DNA from: Guyparkeria sp. SCN-R1
GTDB taxonomy: Bacteria > Pseudomonadota > Gammaproteobacteria > Halothiobacillales > Halothiobacillaceae
Reading direction: 5' to 3'
Assembly (NCBI RefSeq): GCF_003932495.1
Contig: NZ_QZMT01000001.1
Location: 62,001 to 126,000 of the forward strand
Length of the DNA stretch: 64,000 bases
Under the pieces are notes generated by a model, which ran no database searches, was not told the origin of the DNA, and was given only the letters and a program-made list of their open reading frames with translations. Each line of letters begins with the position of its first letter. Within the stretch, counting starts at the first letter, position 1. Made by a program: the position numbers and the translations under genes. Positions 3,168 through 10,961 of the stretch are shown here, piece after piece.

Positions 3168-4136
3168 ATGAGGATGAAATGGCGCTCAGCTTGGATAAGC
3201 ACTTTCTGGGGGCGGCTGGCCTTGCTGATTGCCGTTCTCGTGTTGCTCTGGGTCGGCGCGTCGTCGCTGTGGTCCGACGTGGCGAGGCCACTGCTGATCA
3301 AGCACACGATGCCGGAAGCGTGGCGCCAGTTGCACGGCGAGGTTCCGCCGTTGATAGCGGAGCGGGAGGTTCGTCTTCGCAAGGCCAATATCAACGGCGT
3401 GCCGATTGCGATTCCCTCCAACTATCTCGCGCTGGTGGGGATCGAGTACAAGGATCAGAGCATCTGGGCGCCGCGCAAGCCCGAAACTCCGAGGCCGGAT
3501 GAGCGGACGTCCGAGGATCCGGCCAATGCCTTCACGCTCTCCGTTCGGTGGCCGGGCCTTCAGCCCCGCGGCCGGGAAACGGAGAAGAGTTATTGGAACA
3601 AGGACGACCCAGAGGGCGATGCATGGCTGTTGATTGGCCTTAGGGCCCATAGCACCCCGGAGGCAATCGAGCGGGGCTGGGGGCCGGTGCTGCGCGGCAG
3701 GATCAAGATGATCGAGGGGCGGCTTAACACCAGATTTCTTCCTCCCCGAAACTCCACGGAGATATCGGGAGGGACGGAAAAAGTGCGAATTCACTACGAA
3801 ATGCGCGGTACCGATCCAGAGACAGGCTTGAGATGGGCCGAGCCAGTCGGGCCCGGAGACGATCGGTTTCACCCCTGGAATCAAACGCTTCACTGGCGGG
3901 GTGAACTGGATGGTCACGTGAGCGACCTAATCGCCTGCTACAACGGCCGGATACCGAATCCGGACATTCGTCCGGTATGTCGCCACCGCTTCTATTTGGC
4001 TGAATGGAGCGCAACGATCGACGTAACCTATCCCCTTGAGTTGCTTCCCCAGTGGCAGGCGGTCAAGTCCAAGGTGCGCGATCTGATTCTGGGCTTTAAG
4101 GCAGGCCCTTCCGATTCAATGAAGGAATCGCACTGA
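3168..4136 (+). CDS. Membrane-anchored protein of unknown function, paralog 1
   Basis: A 322-residue protein that I do not recognise by function. It has one N-terminal membrane helix (about residues 15-38, LALLIAVLVLLWVGASSLW) preceded by basic residues, then a soluble domain of roughly 280 residues predicted to face the periplasm. Conserved landmarks shared with its neighbour are KANINGVPIAIPSNYLAL, YKDQSIWAPRKP, a WLLIGL strand, and a late cysteine pair in ACYNGRIPNP and RPVCRHRF. It ends with a helix after TYPLELLPQW. The frame continues upstream to 2988, but the ATG at 3168, after GGTGG, gives a sensible membrane anchor. The C-terminal pattern (two cysteines, Tyr-Pro, LLPxW, amphipathic helix) recalls T6SS lipase-immunity-type proteins. 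That resemblance is from memory only, and no effector gene is nearby. Confidence 0.8.
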   Translation: MRMKWRSAWISTFWGRLALLIAVLVLLWVGASSLWSDVARPLLIKHTMPEAWRQLHGEVPPLIAEREVRLRKANINGVPIAIPSNYLALVGIEYKDQSIWAPRKPETPRPDERTSEDPANAFTLSVRWPGLQPRGRETEKSYWNKDDPEGDAWLLIGLRAHSTPEAIERGWGPVLRGRIKMIEGRLNTRFLPPRNSTEISGGTEKVRIHYEMRGTDPETGLRWAEPVGPGDDRFHPWNQTLHWRGELDGHVSDLIACYNGRIPNPDIRPVCRHRFYLAEWSATIDVTYPLELLPQWQAVKSKVRDLILGFKAGPSDSMKESH

Positions 4137-4159: not shown

Positions 4160-5140
4160 ATGGGAAAAGGGGTCAGAGACCTTTTTGATCGCTGGGCGCG
4201 GCTGTCCTTGCTGATTGCCGTTCTCGTGTTGCTCTGGGTTGGCGCGTCGGTGCTTTGGTCAGACGTGGCGAGGCCGCTGCTGGTCAAGCACGCGACGCCG
4301 GAAGCGTGGCCCCAGCTACATGGCGAGGTGCCGCCGTTGCTGGCAGAGCGCCGGGTGACGATTCGCAAGGCCAATATCAACGGCGTACCGATCGCGATTC
4401 CATCCAACTACTTGGCGCTGGCCGGTGTCGAGTACAAGGATCAGAGTATCTGGGCTCCGCGCAAGCCGGACACGCCGATGCCGGACGAGCGGACATTTGA
4501 ACATGCTGCCGATGCATTCACGCTCTCCGTTCGGTGGCCGGACCTTCAGCCCCGCAGCCGGGAAACGGAGAAGAGTTACTGGAGCAAAGACGATCCAGAC
4601 GGGGATGTCTGGCTGCTGATCGGCCTCGTGGCCGATAGCAATCCAGAGGCAATCGATCGTCATCTTGGCTTGACGCGGGTGCTGCGCGGCAGGATCAAGA
4701 TGATTGAGGGGCGACTGCATACGAGAAAACTTCCTCCTCGGAACTCTACCGAGATGTGGGGAGGGGCTGAAAAAGTACGAATCCACTACGAAATGCGCGG
4801 CACTGATCCGGAGACAGGCCTGAAATGGGCCGAGCCGGTTGGGCCTGGTACCGAACGCTTTCACGCCTGGAATCAAACGCTTCATTGGCAGGGCAGCCTG
4901 GATGGCCAAGTGATCGACATGATCGAGTGCTACAACGGCCGGATGCCGAATCCGGAGAGCCGTCCGGTATGTCGCCATCGCCTCCGTCTGTCCGAATGGG
5001 GTGCTTCGGTCGCAGTAACCTATCCGCTCGAGCTGCTTCCACGCTGGAAGAAAATAAAGTCCAAAGTCCAGGATCTGATTCTGGACTTCGAAGAAAAACT
5101 CTCGATTCAATCGGCAAAGGGGTCAGAAACCTTTTTGTGA
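4160..5140 (+). CDS. Membrane-anchored protein of unknown function, paralog 2
   Basis: A 326-residue tandem paralog of the preceding gene, 23 bp downstream, with most residues identical over about 290 positions, including the membrane helix, KANINGVPIAIPSNYLAL, YKDQSIWAPRKP, NSTEMWGG, YEMRGTDPETGL and the cysteine pair. DNA identity is also high, which points to a recent duplication. Homology starts just inside the membrane helix and stops near the last helix. The divergent ends (GKGVRDLF at the start, KGSETFL at the finish) are encoded by two copies of one hairpin motif at 4165-4186 and 5116-5136, read in different frames. The start at 4160 has an AAGGAAAG ribosome-binding site. The function is unknown; the duplication suggests dosage or diversification, as seen in immunity-type or surface-exclusion genes. 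Confidence 0.8.
   Translation: MGKGVRDLFDRWARLSLLIAVLVLLWVGASVLWSDVARPLLVKHATPEAWPQLHGEVPPLLAERRVTIRKANINGVPIAIPSNYLALAGVEYKDQSIWAPRKPDTPMPDERTFEHAADAFTLSVRWPDLQPRSRETEKSYWSKDDPDGDVWLLIGLVADSNPEAIDRHLGLTRVLRGRIKMIEGRLHTRKLPPRNSTEMWGGAEKVRIHYEMRGTDPETGLKWAEPVGPGTERFHAWNQTLHWQGSLDGQVIDMIECYNGRMPNPESRPVCRHRLRLSEWGASVAVTYPLELLPRWKKIKSKVQDLILDFEEKLSIQSAKGSETFL
4165..4186. repeat. Hairpin motif, copy 1 (start of paralog 2)
   Basis: The motif has a GGTC-AGA-GACC core inside A-rich and T-rich arms. In RNA the stem extends through two G-U pairs and several A-U pairs. A near copy, one internal base different and with a shorter A-arm, lies at 5116-5136, at the other end of paralog 2. It resembles repetitive extragenic hairpins of the GGGGTCAGA type that I recall from proteobacteria; no transposase gene is nearby. 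Confidence 0.6.
5116..5136. repeat. Hairpin motif, copy 2 (end of paralog 2)
   Basis: It repeats the motif at 4165-4186, with GGTC-AGA-AACC replacing the perfect core. It encodes the last residues of paralog 2 and directly abuts the right copy of the 27-bp repeat. Direct repeats about 950 bp apart therefore bracket paralog 2 almost exactly. Confidence 0.6.
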
Positions 5141-5166
5141 AGTGGTTGCGCGGCATGCGTCGTTGA
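5140..5166 (+). repeat. 27-bp direct repeat, right copy (orphan peptidase gene end)
   Basis: This is a diverged copy of the peptidase gene's last 27 bases. It still encodes KWLRGMRR and a stop, although no peptidase reading frame precedes it. The purely synonymous differences indicate that it came from a related gene under protein-level selection, not from random drift. Confidence 0.7.
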
Positions 5167-5270
5167 CACCCGGCCTGCTTTGCGTCCGAACGCAGGCGTG
5201 TCTCGTATACAATGCCCGCCATCACGCCGGTATCCGGCACGAAATCCAGAATAAAACCAGGAAACGCGTC

Positions 5271-6041
5271 ATGCAGAGCCAATACCTCGAAACCGCGCTG
5301 GCCGCCGCCCGCGCCGCCGAAACCGTCGTCCGTCGCTACTGGCAGCAGAACGTCGAGATCGAGATCAAGGAAGACGCCACGCCGGTCACGGTCGCCGACG
5401 TGGAAACCGAGAAGGCGATCAAGGCGGTGATCCTGGATGCCTTTCCGGATCATGGTTTCTACGGCGAGGAGACCGGCAAGACGCGTCCCGAGGCCGAGTT
5501 CACCTGGCTGGTCGATCCCATCGACGGCACCAAGAGCTTCGTGCGCGAGTACCCGTTCTTTTCCACGCAGATTGCGCTGATGCAGGGCGACGAGATCATC
5601 CTGGGCGTGTCCAGCGCACCGGTGTTCGGCGAGTACGCCTACGCCGAGAAGGGTGGTGGGGCGTTCTTCATGGACCGCGCCGCGCGCGTCAGCCAGATCG
5701 ACACCCTGTCCGAGGCGACGCTTTCGGTGGGCAATCTCGCGACACTGGCCAAGCAGCCGGTCGGCTGGGCGGGCCTGGCGACGCTGGTCGCGGAGGTGAA
5801 CCGCACCCGAGGCTACGGCGATTTCTACCACTATCACCTGCTGGCGCGCGGCGCGATCGACCTGATCGTCGAGTCGGACGTCAACGTGCTCGACATCGCT
5901 GCGCTGTCGGTGATCGTCCAGGAGGCCGGTGGCGTGTTCACCGACCTGGAGGGCAAGGGCGTTGGGCTGGACACCACGACCGTGTGTGCCGCGGCCACGC
6001 CGGCACTGCACCAGGTCGCGCGCAAGCGGCTGGGGTACTGA
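5271..6041 (+). CDS. hisN: Inositol-monophosphatase-family phosphatase, histidinol-phosphatase (HisN) type
   Basis: A 256-residue cytoplasmic, metal-dependent phosphatase. The metal-binding signature is intact: a GEETG site near residue 66, then WLVDPIDGTKSF around residues 80-91, and a later DVNVLDIAAL near residue 205 supplying the third metal ligand. KSFVREYPFF following DPIDGT is more like histidinol-phosphatases than SuhB or CysQ. The likely reaction is therefore L-histidinol phosphate to histidinol in histidine synthesis; activity on other phosphate monoesters cannot be excluded. The ATG at 5271 was chosen because the upstream extension has no family similarity. The gene stands alone, 104 bp after the accessory block. 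Confidence 0.75.
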   Translation: MQSQYLETALAAARAAETVVRRYWQQNVEIEIKEDATPVTVADVETEKAIKAVILDAFPDHGFYGEETGKTRPEAEFTWLVDPIDGTKSFVREYPFFSTQIALMQGDEIILGVSSAPVFGEYAYAEKGGGAFFMDRAARVSQIDTLSEATLSVGNLATLAKQPVGWAGLATLVAEVNRTRGYGDFYHYHLLARGAIDLIVESDVNVLDIAALSVIVQEAGGVFTDLEGKGVGLDTTTVCAAATPALHQVARKRLGY

Positions 6042-6187: not shown

Positions 6188-7054
6188 TCAGGTAGGCAGA
6201 TCGATCCAGCCGAGCAGGACGGCCGCTGCCAGTAGCCAGACATAGAACGAAAAGATCTTCAGCTGGGCGCGGTACAGGAAGTAGACCACCAGCTTCAGGG
6301 AGACGATGCCGACCAGCGCCGAGACCACGAAGCCGACCGTCATGGCCATCAGGCTGATGCCATTGAGGCCAAGGTTGCCCCACACCTCCAGGCTCTGTAC
6401 CAGGGTGGCGGCCAGGATGGTCGGAATGGCCAGGAAGAAGCTGTATTCGGCGGCCCAGCGGCGCTTGAGGCCAGTGAACAGCGAGAACACGATGGTCATG
6501 GCGCTGCGCGACAGTCCCGGGACCAGCGCAAAGCCCTGGGCCACGCCGATGACGGTCGCCACCTTGGCATTAATGCCCTTGAGGCCGCGCCGTCGCGGCT
6601 TGAGCTTGTCGGTCCACCACAGCAGGATGCCGGTCAAGGTCAGCGTGAAGGCGATCATCACCGGCGTGGCGAACACCTGCTCGAAGGTGGTCTTGAGCCC
6701 GAAACCGATCACCGCGGTGGCCAGCACCGACAGCATCCCCAGCAGGAACAAGCGCACGTAGAGGGGCATGCCTTCGTGCCGACCCTCGGCCGAGGCCCAG
6801 TGAAGGGCGCCGGTCGCCGCGTTGTGCGAAAAGCGCCACAGGCTGGGCCAGAACACCACCACGATCGAGACCAGCGTGCCGACATGCACCACCAGGTCGA
6901 ACAGGATCATCTCGGGGCTGTCCGGCGACGGCAGGTCATGGCCTTTTTCGATCAGCCAGTGCTGGGTCAGCACCAGGTGGGCTGTCGAACTGACGGGCAG
7001 GAACATGAAGATGCCCTGAATGACGCCGAGCAGGGCGGCGATGAGCAGTGTCAC
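6188..7054 (-). CDS. uppP: Undecaprenyl-diphosphatase family membrane protein (UppP/BacA-like), atypical active site
   Basis: A 288-residue multi-pass inner-membrane protein with the BacA/UppP fold. It carries FLPVSSTAHLVL near residues 18-29, a second half-site with PGLSRSAMT near residue 172, and about eight hydrophobic segments. UppP recycles undecaprenyl diphosphate to the monophosphate lipid carrier for peptidoglycan synthesis. In E. coli the first motif carries two catalytic glutamates (EGLTEFLP). Here they are Gln13 and Met17 (QGIFMFLP), so activity may differ. The start is a GTG at 7054, just before the first membrane helix with AGGATA upstream. An upstream extension to 7180 is not membrane-like. 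Confidence 0.8.
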   Translation of the reverse strand: MTLLIAALLGVIQGIFMFLPVSSTAHLVLTQHWLIEKGHDLPSPDSPEMILFDLVVHVGTLVSIVVVFWPSLWRFSHNAATGALHWASAEGRHEGMPLYVRLFLLGMLSVLATAVIGFGLKTTFEQVFATPVMIAFTLTLTGILLWWTDKLKPRRRGLKGINAKVATVIGVAQGFALVPGLSRSAMTIVFSLFTGLKRRWAAEYSFFLAIPTILAATLVQSLEVWGNLGLNGISLMAMTVGFVVSALVGIVSLKLVVYFLYRAQLKIFSFYVWLLAAAVLLGWIDLPT

Positions 7055-7270
7055 GTGGCTATCCTGATGTTGGGAAAGCGGTGTTTTTACTGCACGGGGC
7101 TGGGGGGCGTCAAATGCCGGCTGTGCATTGGGCATTCGGAGTGCGAGCGGACCCGCATTCCGGTGATAACAAGCGCGCAAGGTTCCCGTGACGTTGTCGG
7201 CCGGGGCTCGTGTCGGATTGAGCGGCTGCCGATGGCGCGATGTTCTGGGAAACGTTAAGTGCGGCGATCT

Positions 7271-7867
7271 TCAGCCATTGCGCAAGGGGTCGATGCCCGC
7301 GGCGCGTAGCAGGCGGGCGGTGGCGATCAGCGGCATGCCAAGGATCGCGCTGGGGTCGCGGCTGTCCATGTGCTCGACCAGGCAGGCGCCGAGACCTTCC
7401 GAGCGCATGCTGCCGGCGCAGTCGAAGGGCTTCTCGATCTCGACGTAGCGGGCAATCTCCTCGTTCGTCAGTTTCCGCATGCGGGCCTCGACGGTTTCGT
7501 GCCAGTCGAGCCGCCGCCCGTCCGGGCAGGCAACGCTGATCGCCACGTGGAAGGTGATGGCTTCGCCGCTGATCTGGGTGAGCTGGCGGCAGGCGGTCTC
7601 GGCATCGCCGGGCTTGCCCAGCAGACCGCCACGCCAAGACAACATCTGGTCGGAGCCCAGTACCACGGTACCGGGGTGGCGATCGGCTACCCGATCGGCC
7701 TTTGCCCGCGCCAGTCGTTGGCAAGCCTCCTTGGCGGGTTCGTTGGCGGCCAGCGTTTCGTCGATGTCGGCGGGGTCGACGGTGTAGGGGATCTGCAGTC
7801 GGTCGAGCAACTGGCGGCGGGTTGCCGAGCCGGAGGCGAGAATCAGGTCTGGTTTGGGGAGCGGCAT
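7271..7867 (-). CDS. yceF: Maf-family nucleotide pyrophosphatase (YceF type)
   Basis: A 198-residue Maf/HAM1-superfamily enzyme that hydrolyses modified nucleoside triphosphates to monophosphates. YceF homologues prefer 7-methyl-GTP, a house-cleaning role in the cytoplasm. The N-terminal ASGSATRRQLL and the VVLGSDQML motif supply the phosphate-binding and catalytic residues, and LGKPGDAETA and the closing GMPLIA segment are also typical. It is transcribed divergently from yceD-rpmF-plsX-fabH, the same arrangement as in E. coli, which supports the YceF subfamily call. Confidence 0.88.
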   Translation of the reverse strand: MPLPKPDLILASGSATRRQLLDRLQIPYTVDPADIDETLAANEPAKEACQRLARAKADRVADRHPGTVVLGSDQMLSWRGGLLGKPGDAETACRQLTQISGEAITFHVAISVACPDGRRLDWHETVEARMRKLTNEEIARYVEIEKPFDCAGSMRSEGLGACLVEHMDSRDPSAILGMPLIATARLLRAAGIDPLRNG

Positions 7868-7977: not shown

Positions 7978-8544
7978 ATGTCGACTGACGACAGCCAGAC
8001 CGATGCCAAGCAGTTGAGCGTGCCGCTTGACGTGCGCGCCGCGTGCCGGGCGGGCGAGGAGAGGGCCGGCGAATTGCCGCTCACGGCATTGACTCGATGC
8101 CGTGACATGGCCCCCGAGGACGGTCGGCTATCCTATCGGATACGTTTCTTCGAGGGGCAGGGGGTGCACCCGCTGGCCGCCGAGATAGCCATCTCGGCGT
8201 CGTTGGCGCTGGAGTGCGCCCGCTGCCGCGAGACGGTGGTGCAGCCGGTCGCATCGTCCTCCCGGTTGAGCTTCGTGTTCAGCGAGGAGCAGGCCGAACA
8301 CGTGGATGCCGCGGCCGAGCCGGTCATCCTCGGGCGCGAGGGGCGGGTCAAGCTGCTCGACCTGATCGAGGACGAGTTGCTGATGGCCGTGCCCCTGATG
8401 CCGGTGCATGAAACGCCCTGTGGGCCGATCCCGCCCGATCGGCCTTACGAGTCGGGCCAGCTGGCCGAGCCGATCGACGAGGACGGCGACGACAACCCCT
8501 TCGCGGCCCTGGCCGCGTTGAAGAAGGGGCCGGGGAAAGAGTGA
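7978..8544 (+). CDS. yceD: YceD family protein (DUF177), large-subunit rRNA accumulation protein
   Basis: A 188-residue cytoplasmic protein. It has the DUF177 landmarks: an ALECARCRE cysteine pair in the middle (around residues 79-82), an acidic DLIEDELLMAVPLMP segment, and the C-terminal NPFAALAALK. Family members are co-transcribed with rpmF and have been tied to 23S rRNA accumulation. The ATG at 7978 follows AGGAC. It is the first gene of the rpmF-plsX-fabH group. Confidence 0.87.
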   Translation: MSTDDSQTDAKQLSVPLDVRAACRAGEERAGELPLTALTRCRDMAPEDGRLSYRIRFFEGQGVHPLAAEIAISASLALECARCRETVVQPVASSSRLSFVFSEEQAEHVDAAAEPVILGREGRVKLLDLIEDELLMAVPLMPVHETPCGPIPPDRPYESGQLAEPIDEDGDDNPFAALAALKKGPGKE

Positions 8545-8967: not shown

Positions 8968-9990
8968 ATGACTAACCAGATCGCAATTGACGTAATGGGT
9001 GGCGATCACGGACCGGAGGTCACGGTTCGTGCCGCTGCCCGTTTTCTGTCGCGCCACCCGTCGGCCGGGCTGTTGCTGGTCGGTGACCAGGCCACGATCG
9101 AGCGATACCTGGCCGAGGAGGCCGGTGTCGACCGCGACCGGATCGAAATCGTCCACGCCGACCAGGTGGTGGCGATGGACGAGTCGCCGGCGGTCGCCCT
9201 GCGCACCAAGAAGTCATCGTCGATGCGGCTGGCGATCGATCTGGTCAAGGATGGTCGAGCGCAGGCCGCGGTCAGCGCGGGCAATACCGGCGCGCTGATG
9301 GCCACGGCCAAGTTCGTGCTCAAGACCCTGCCGGGTATCGAGCGGCCGGCCATCTGCACCGCGCTGCCGAACGAGTCCGGGCACACCCATGTGCTCGACC
9401 TTGGGGCGAACGTCGATTGCGACGCCGAGCACCTGTTCCAGTTTGCGGTCATGGGCTCTGTGCTGGTCGAGGCCTTCGACGACAACCCCTCACCGCGCGT
9501 CGGCCTGCTTAATGTCGGTGCCGAGGCGATGAAGGGCAACGACACCGTCAAGAGCGCCGCCGAACGGCTCCAGGCGGGACCGGTGAATTACATCGGCTTC
9601 GTCGAGGGCGACGACATCTACAAGGGTGGCGTCGACGTGGTGGTCTGCGACGGCTTTGTCGGCAACGTCGCGCTCAAGAGCAGCGAGGGGGTGGCCAAGA
9701 TGATCAGCCACTTCCTGCGCCAGGAGTTCAAGCGCGGTATCTTCTCTCGCCTGGCCGCCCTGATGGCGATGCCGGTGCTTGCGCGCCTGAAAAAACGCGT
9801 CGACCCCGGCCGCTACAACGGCGCCAGCCTGCTCGGCCTGCAAGGCATCGTCATCAAGAGTCACGGCGGTGCCAGTGTCGAGGCCTTCGGCAACGCGCTC
9901 GACGTCGCCTTGCGCGAGATCGAGAAGGACGTGCCGCGCCGTATCGACCAGCGGCTGGAGACACTGCTTCAGGAGCGCTCTGACGGATGA
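8968..9990 (+). CDS. plsX: Phosphate acyltransferase PlsX
   Basis: A 340-residue peripheral enzyme that converts acyl-ACP to acyl phosphate for the PlsY step of phospholipid synthesis. The N-terminal [16 protein letters not shown], the internal [13 protein letters not shown] and the [16 protein letters not shown] segments are family signatures. Length is normal. Its stop overlaps the fabH start (ATGA at 9987-9990), indicating translational coupling. Confidence 0.96.
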
Positions 9991-10961
9991 TCCATTCGCG
10001 CATCACCGGGACCGGCAGCTACCTCCCCGAGCGGGTCATGACCAATCATGACCTCGAGCAGATCGTCGATACCTCCGATGCCTGGATTCGCGAACGGACC
10101 GGCATCGAGCAGCGTCACATCGCCGCCGAAGGCCAGCTGACGTCCGATCTGGCCGAGCCCGCGGCGCGACGGGCACTCGAGGCCGCCGGCCGCGTGCCCG
10201 AGGAAGTCGACTTGATCATCGTGGCGACCACCACGCCCGATCGCACCTTCCCCTCCACCGCCTGCCTGTTGCAGCAGAAGCTCGGCATCCACGGCCCGCC
10301 GGCGTTCGATGTCCAGGCGGTCTGCACCGGTTTCGTCTACGCGCTGTCGGTGGCCGACAAGTTCATCAAAACCGGTGCGGCCCGCTGCGCCCTGGTTGTC
10401 GGCGCAGAGACGCTCTCGCGCATCGTAAATTGGTCGGACCGCAACACCTGCGTGCTGTTCGCCGACGGCGCCGGCGCGGTGGTGCTGGAGGCCTCGGACG
10501 AGCCGGGCATCATCCGCACCGATATCCACGCCGATGGCAGTTACGAGTCGCTGCTGACCACCACCAAGCCAGACCCCGAAACCACCGACCCGGAGCGGCT
10601 CGCCGACGGCACCGCCTTCATCGAGATGCGTGGCAACGAGGTCTTCCGCATGGCGGTGAATACCCTTGGGCGCATCGTCGACCAGACCATGGAAGCCGCC
10701 GGCATGAGCCCGGACGAGATCGACTGGCTCGTCCCGCACCAGGCGAACATTCGTATCATCCAGGCCACGGCGCGCAAGTTGGGCATGTCGATGGACCGGG
10801 TGGTGGTGACCGTCGATCGGCACGGCAACACCTCGGCGGCCTCGGTGCCGTTGGCACTGGATGTGGCCGTGCGCGACGGGCGCATCAAGCGCGGCGATGT
10901 CATCCTTACCGAGGCCTTTGGTGGCGGGTTTACCTGGGGCTCGGCGCTGCTGCGCTACTGA
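9987..10961 (+). CDS. fabH: 3-oxoacyl-ACP synthase III (KAS III)
   Basis: A 324-residue enzyme that condenses acetyl-CoA with malonyl-ACP to begin fatty acid synthesis. The catalytic triad is visible: Cys113 in QAVCTGF, His251 in VPHQANIRI and Asn281 in GNTSAAS. The C-terminal [10 protein letters not shown]-like glycine loop is present as [15 protein letters not shown]. The E. coli order would continue with fabD, but here a CYTH-domain gene follows after 27 bp. Confidence 0.97.

Follow-up and report, generated by a model that had tools for sequence, protein, structure and literature searches.

The uppP locus and its product

The window, by which we mean the whole 64,000-nucleotide stretch of the Guyparkeria sp. 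SCN-R1 genome that was analyzed, holds a BacA-family gene bordered by maf and by an inositol-monophosphatase-family gene (Table 1). Its reading frame starts at a GTG, with an AGGA seen by eye 7 nt before it, and also opens upstream at a TTG at position 7180. The translation includes GVIQGIFMFLPVSSTAHL and PGLSRSAMT. Elsewhere in the window, two tandem plus-strand ORFs (3168-4136 and 4160-5140) are 78% identical over 300 amino acids, with a hydrophobic N-terminal stretch recognized by eye and no Pfam match at an E value of 0.01, and the plus-strand ORF 1775-2617 contains HEVGHALQ and looks like a membrane zinc metallopeptidase, presumably YugP-like.

Table 1. Coordinates of the uppP gene, its motifs, and the neighboring genes in the window
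Feature	Position	Strand	Basis
uppP, FMF type, 288-aa BacA-family membrane protein	6188..7054	minus	Pfam BacA, AF2 model, Foldseek
First motif, Q13-G-I-F-M17-F-L-P-V-S-S23-T-A-H26	6977..7018	minus	Alignment; coordinates by hand from GTG at 7054
Second motif, PGLSRSAMT (Arg183 = E. coli Arg174)	6494..6520	minus	ORF translation, alignment
Val272 codon (= E. coli Arg261, pocket arginine)	6239..6241	minus	Val or Leu in 79/79 FMF rows
Inositol-monophosphatase-family gene, presumably cysQ-like; downstream border of the uppP slot	5142..6041	plus	Pfam Inositol_P, on 5250-6038
maf; upstream border of the uppP slot	7271..7867	minus	Pfam Maf
ORF used as flank marker, presumably yceD-like	7978..8544	plus	Comparison of flanks
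Two flank-marker genes, which we take to be plsX and fabH	8968..10961	plus	Comparison of flanks

The protein matches Pfam BacA (PF02673) with 218.9 bits against a cut-off of 33.4, its residues 6 to 277 covering positions 1 to 256 of the 257-position profile; the only further Pfam match, to EOS1, lies below its cut-off, and the Pfam scan gave no match to PF04018, PF09335, or PAP2. An AF2 model built from an alignment of 50 sequences (pLDDT, 85.9; pTM, 0.82) found the BacA structure 5oon as its best Foldseek match (E value, 2e-11; TMq, 0.75), and the only matches with E values below 0.001 were 5oon and 6fmt, both BacA. The window protein nevertheless scores under all 12 cut-offs of the NCBIfam UppP equivalogs (TIGR00753 and NF001388-NF001398), reaching 160.7 versus the 217.5 of TIGR00753; this comparison refers to the window protein, the other 49 rows of alignment A1 having been read by their best E values only.

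What sets the protein apart lies in the motif that carries Glu21, the general base of canonical UppP, and that we take to be named (E/Q)xxxE. When aligned with the BacA/UppP structures 5oon and 6cb2 (chain numbering shifted by 9), Gln13, Met17, Ser23, and His26 correspond to Glu17, Glu21, Ser27, and His30 of Escherichia coli, whereas Ser22-Ser23-Thr24-x-His26 and PGLSRS are intact. An earlier note, made from the DNA alone, had assigned Gln13 and Met17 to the Glu17 and Glu21 positions and had described PGLSRS as intact; the structural alignment and the ORF translation agree with it on both counts. Thus, the protein shares with E. coli BacA (PF02673; 5oon, 6cb2) the fold, both re-entrant motifs, and the Ser27, Arg174, and His30 equivalents, but features Gln-Met for Glu17-Glu21, Phe for Thr20, and Val/Leu for Arg261, as well as an extra LPxPxSPEM loop. 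Among the papers listed in a literature search that covered few subscription papers, we saw no description of this variant.

A discrete subfamily without Glu21

The homologues considered are the best 80 of 113 loci found in a scan of genome contigs. Their first motif, QGxFMFxPVSST (hereafter “FMF” type), shows no variation across the 50 rows of alignment A1. A larger alignment has Phe16 and Met17 in 79/79 FMF-type rows and Thr-Glu in all of the remaining 50 rows, as counted without loci L001-L009, eight repeated loci, and four cyanobacterial rows whose N terminus is unaligned there (these four are in A1, where their motif is invariant); L169, one of the FMF rows, seems to duplicate L072. Among the best 80 of 113 loci, the Phe-Met pair is found in 79, and the 80th, L108, ends before the motif. 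Since WAAEYSFF occurs in all 80 of these loci and VIQGIFMF in only 7, the methionine does not stem from the search pattern, and this explanation could be ruled out. Chance or sequencing error is likewise ruled out by the conservation of Met17 across phyla, the FMF records being titled Gammaproteobacteria, Balneolaceae, Gemmatimonadetes, Cyanobacteria, and Firmicutes.

In a midpoint-rooted tree, 83 FMF sequences group together as a single clade, set apart by a long stem (length, 1.04; local support, 0.83). This isolation is mirrored in the bit scores: 290 of 369 gammaproteobacterial genomes match, six of them with 402 to 480 bits and the next best with 172, and in the phylum of G132 (the genome of L094, whose record is titled Gemmatimonadales) 191 of 200 genomes match, seven with 430 to 445 bits and the next with 163. 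These seven top-scoring loci all read FMF. From the lower-scoring loci of the same phylum 23 were fetched, of which 22 were readable; Glu21 is present in all 22, two of which lack Thr20. The suggestion of a divergent subfamily, made in the earlier note, is therefore borne out by a discrete clade and a large bit-score gap to other BacA proteins, and its remark on active relatives that share the first of the two changes is consistent with our data to the extent that 35 of 50 Glu21-type sequences carry Gln at this position. The FMF methionine marks a whole subfamily, not a decayed copy.

Some members deserve separate mention. FMF loci L037, L038, L044, and L070 stem from metagenome-assembled genomes (MAGs) titled Desulfonatronospira and are nested among gammaproteobacterial sequences, reflecting either transfer or misbinned contigs. 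The cyanobacterial matches L091, L100, L104, and L105 span 915 to 918 bases versus about 855 in most gammaproteobacterial ones, and in L104 about 25 extra columns follow the helix that ends near residue 88.

Conserved and altered residues

Residue conservation was read from 79 FMF rows (L036 and L108, cut, left out). In E. coli numbering, all 79 rows retain the equivalents of Ser26, Ser27, Thr28, Ser173, Arg174, Ser175, Thr178, and Arg189, and 78 retain that of His30. Residues that the 50 Glu21-type rows share almost without exception, but that FMF lacks, include Thr20 (Phe), Glu21 (Met), Ala59 (Ser), Pro101, Phe195 (Tyr), and Arg261 (Val or Leu). Arg261 is not a clean FMF marker: in the phylum of G132, as read by text pattern rather than by alignment, it is absent from 18 of the 22 readable Glu21-type loci (Cys in 13, Val in 4, Leu in 1), which weakens the idea that the paired loss of Glu21 and Arg261 is a charge-balanced rewiring.

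In the FMF alignment, we saw no clade-specific invariant acid in a membrane segment that could replace Glu21 as the shifted catalytic residue considered in the earlier note. Two candidates were rejected, namely, position 53, with Asp in only 66/79 rows, and Glu48, with Gln in 2/79. Comparing the window gene with four other FMF genes of the genus yielded dN/dS values of 0.05 to 0.10 (four comparisons), indicating that the FMF gene is under purifying selection.

Copy number and PAP2 phosphatases

In the genome from which the window derives (2.42 Mb, 68 contigs, 99.99% complete), the FMF gene is the only BacA place. From an initial 79 loci, 50 were taken into a survey of as many FMF genomes, in 37 of which FMF is again the sole BacA place, whereas 13 contain at least one more; for genomes with non-MAG titles, 14 of 18 are FMF-only. 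The extra copies could be read in 10 of the 13 genomes and carry Glu21 in all 10. Co-occurrence with a second UppP, raised in the earlier note, applies to these 13 genomes and fails in the other 37, and an account of FMF as a paralogue beside another BacA copy is true for only 13/50.

The essential carrier C55-P is made from undecaprenyl diphosphate (C55-PP) by BacA and PAP2 enzymes, according to a review (PMC12826051). PAP2 phosphatases (PgpB, YbjG, and BcrC; PF01569) catalyze the same reaction on the same side of the membrane (PMC4641660, PMC12826051) but belong to a different family, to which the FMF protein has no match. In 11 of 29 FMF-only genomes outside Guyparkeria (G107, G114, G119, G121, G122, G124, G126, G127, G135, G137, and G145), no PF01569 match was found at an E value of 0.001, nor did any of the 11 match PAP2_3 (PF14378); the 11 include two isolates, namely, Thioalkalivibrio halophilus HL17 (G107) and Natronospirillum operosum (G121). 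In these 11 genomes, FMF is thus the only recognizable candidate for a C55-PP phosphatase, with the caveats that FMF-only genomes are mostly drafts, in which a second phosphatase may have been missed, and that phosphatase families not yet recognized may exist. Within Guyparkeria, the window's own genome has three PAP2 places, and two to four were found in each of this genome and the nine genus-mates searched, so that the sole-phosphatase argument is one for the family and not for this genome.

Exchange of uppP types at one slot in Guyparkeria

Seven Guyparkeria genomes carry the FMF type (G000, G001, G002, G004, G006, G008, and G009), two have a Glu21-type UppP only (G005 and G010), and G007 has both; G003, which is 64% complete, gave no BacA match. 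In other genera of the family, the 15 matching genomes (G011-G025) score as canonical, with Glu21 in all nine that were read, and G026 gave no BacA match. Wherever the fetched stretch covers both flanks, uppP of either type sits between maf and the cysQ-like gene, the canonical gene occupying the FMF slot in G005, G010, and G007.

The two types interrupt otherwise similar DNA. The FMF protein is 30% identical to the canonical protein of G005, and an alignment of L029 with L006 shows 89.7% identity up to position 1452, resuming at 2440 with 86.3%; uppP lies at 1501-2268, and one 36-base match falls inside this otherwise dissimilar stretch. Conversely, the FMF genes of G000 and G008 are 93.0% identical, versus 75.8% for maf, 64.6% for yceD, 82.8% for plsX, 84.9% for fabH, 77.8% for a CYTH ORF, and 82.9% for cysQ.

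Trees of the neighboring genes place FMF and Glu21-type genomes next to each other. G008 (FMF) and contig 8 of G007 (Glu21 type) are sisters by maf, yceD, plsX, fabH, and the CYTH ORF, with 88.7 to 91.7% identity for these maf-side genes (90.4% for maf) and support of 1.0 each. In the cysQ tree, contig 8 of G007 pairs not with G008 but with G001 (95.9%; support, 0.875), so that the histories of the flanks are mosaic, which is itself a sign of recombination at the uppP slot. Similarly, rpoB groups G004 (FMF) as sister to G005 (Glu21 type; 94.3%; support, 0.984; G010 not included), as do cysQ, plsX, and fabH, and in the maf and yceD trees G010 pairs with G004 or G005. Judged from these trees, uppP type swapped at least twice. 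A gene-sized transfer of FMF has taken place in Guyparkeria; as for its direction, we infer that the canonical gene was the one replaced.

G007 carries two cysQ-like genes, L163 on contig 38 by the FMF uppP and L162 on contig 8 by the Glu21-type uppP. Its FMF copy is cut by the contig end beside the second cysQ, which suggests a mixed bin; the two-cysQ state as such suggests either a mixed bin or recombination at the slot. Both types also occur within other genera, in the genome pairs G182/G396 and G436/G341. The former share one 40% identical ORF about 4 kb from uppP and no nearer neighbor, and the latter have no ORF in common within the stretches fetched, so that in-place replacement finds no support from adjacent shared genes in these pairs. 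Carriage by phages or plasmids was rejected, since none of the matches, which fall in 290 plasmid and 23 phage records, reaches 60% identity.

Habitat distribution

Among the best 80 of 113 loci, 51 come from soda-lake samples or Thioalkalivibrio, 37 bearing the sample names CSSed, T1Sed, T3Sed, or B1Sed (CSSed16 labels were taken by name as the same lake) and 14 more being Thioalkalivibrio records; this enrichment is descriptive, and the title of a MAG may not hold for an individual contig. Since Guyparkeria species are halophilic rather than strictly alkaliphilic, high pH alone does not explain the distribution of FMF. The four sample names denote soda-lake datasets, and such lakes are low in calcium and magnesium, with pH values up to 11 (PMC6146748); Thioalkalivibrio inhabits soda lakes at pH 9.5 to 11 (PMC5345834). 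Adaptation to alkaline, Ca/Mg-poor brines is a plausible but unproven driver of FMF, and any selective reason is speculative.

FMF as a probable phosphatase and the competing explanations

The observed sequence change, the clade and its conservation, the copy number, and the shared slot are in our view best explained if FMF is a functional BacA-fold C55-PP phosphatase that dispenses with the Glu21 base and has been exchanged with canonical uppP by xenologous replacement, a reading we consider probable. If FMF replaced the canonical gene in place by horizontal transfer, it would do the housekeeping job of that gene. C55-PP hydrolysis would then proceed via phospho-Ser23: Ser23 (E. coli Ser27) would still attack the terminal phosphate, with Arg183 (Arg174) and both ends of the re-entrant helices keeping this phosphate in place. 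With no carboxylate at 17 or 21, the proton would have to be taken by something other than Glu21; it is tempting to speculate that the fully ionized substrate phosphate, or hydroxide at alkaline pH, is the simplest acceptor, which would fit high pH, and that the absence of the carboxylates relaxes the need for Ca or Mg. A point against this reading comes from E. coli BacA itself, whose E21A variant retains 1.4% of activity and fails to complement (Manat 2015, PMC4641660), so that loss of Glu21 alone should cripple the canonical enzyme; on C15-PP, E21A kept 40% residual activity, as quoted there from Chang et al. (PMC4641660). Weighing against the reading as well are the failure to find an acid in place of Glu21, the three PAP2 places of the window's own genome, the scores under the NCBIfam cut-offs, the mosaic flanks revealed by cysQ, and the draft state of most FMF-only genomes.

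Loss of the essential base could also mean that FMF is a non- or weakly catalytic translocase for C55-P or another lipid carrier, whose pocket binds without hydrolysis and whose inverted-repeat fold flips C55-P. BacA indeed has a transporter-like inverted repeat, and a flippase function has been suggested for it (PMC5861054, PMC5852022). The known C55-P translocases PopT (DUF368) and UptA (DedA) act in the same lipid-carrier cycle but belong to different families without a match to the FMF protein; in Vibrio cholerae, cells at alkaline pH depend on a DUF368 protein for their shape (PMC9876793). In favor of a translocase, PopT (PF04018) has no match in the 25 genomes of the Guyparkeria family searched; given matches in 12 of 60 genomes and in 0 of these 25, we rejected a PopT-linked role of FMF. 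However, FMF replaces canonical uppP in the same slot, takes the sole BacA place in 37/50 genomes, and retains Ser27 and Arg174 invariantly, two residues that a protein engaged in transport alone should be able to do without. All 27 genomes checked encode proteins of the DedA family, among whose members are C55-P flippases, and a translocase would leave 11 genomes with no recognizable C55-PP phosphatase. The slot, the copy number, and the DedA proteins thus disfavor the different role, such as transport, that the earlier note had raised, and we regard it as unlikely.

An active phosphatase with an altered substrate, such as another polyprenyl or lipid diphosphate, would have to leave C55-PP to PAP2 enzymes. 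The PAP2 places of the Guyparkeria genomes searched and the substitutions that characterize the clade in or close to the motifs (T20F, E21M, A59S, and F195Y) are compatible with this, but the 11 FMF-only genomes without a PAP2 match and the interchange with canonical uppP at one locus make it quite unlikely. Even less credible, and in our estimate highly improbable, is a decaying uppP made redundant by PAP2 enzymes: the same PAP2 places and the lost essential residue would agree with it, yet the low dN/dS values, the invariance of Met17 across several phyla, which by itself contradicts decay, and the role of FMF as the only recognizable C55-PP phosphatase in 11 genomes do not. Overall, FMF is a naturally occurring variant within a known family of enzymes and most probably an active phosphatase that takes the place of canonical UppP. 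The more far-reaching version, in which it would be a natural intramembrane C55-PP phosphatase without Glu17 and Glu21 that is possibly Ca/Mg independent, adapted to alkaline, carbonate-rich brines poor in Ca and Mg, and transferred between phyla as an alternative housekeeping allele, we put forward only as a tentative possibility.

The published mechanism of BacA rests on the Glu21 base and on a putative Glu17/Glu21 metal site (PMC4641660, PMC5852022, PMC5861054), Glu21 lying close to Glu17 as a carboxyl pair (PMC5861054) that has been proposed as a Ca site (PMC5852022). If the reading of FMF as a phosphatase free of Glu17 and Glu21 is true, Glu21 would not be obligatory for BacA catalysis. 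A widespread natural clade that keeps the nucleophile and the arginine, places Met at the base, and substitutes for canonical UppP in related species offers a direct test of the role of the base and the need for the metal site, and it defines a subfamily whose member in the window falls under the NCBIfam UppP cut-offs. For Guyparkeria, uppP provides a natural allele-swap system in which to ask why a housekeeping cell-wall enzyme should be exchanged.
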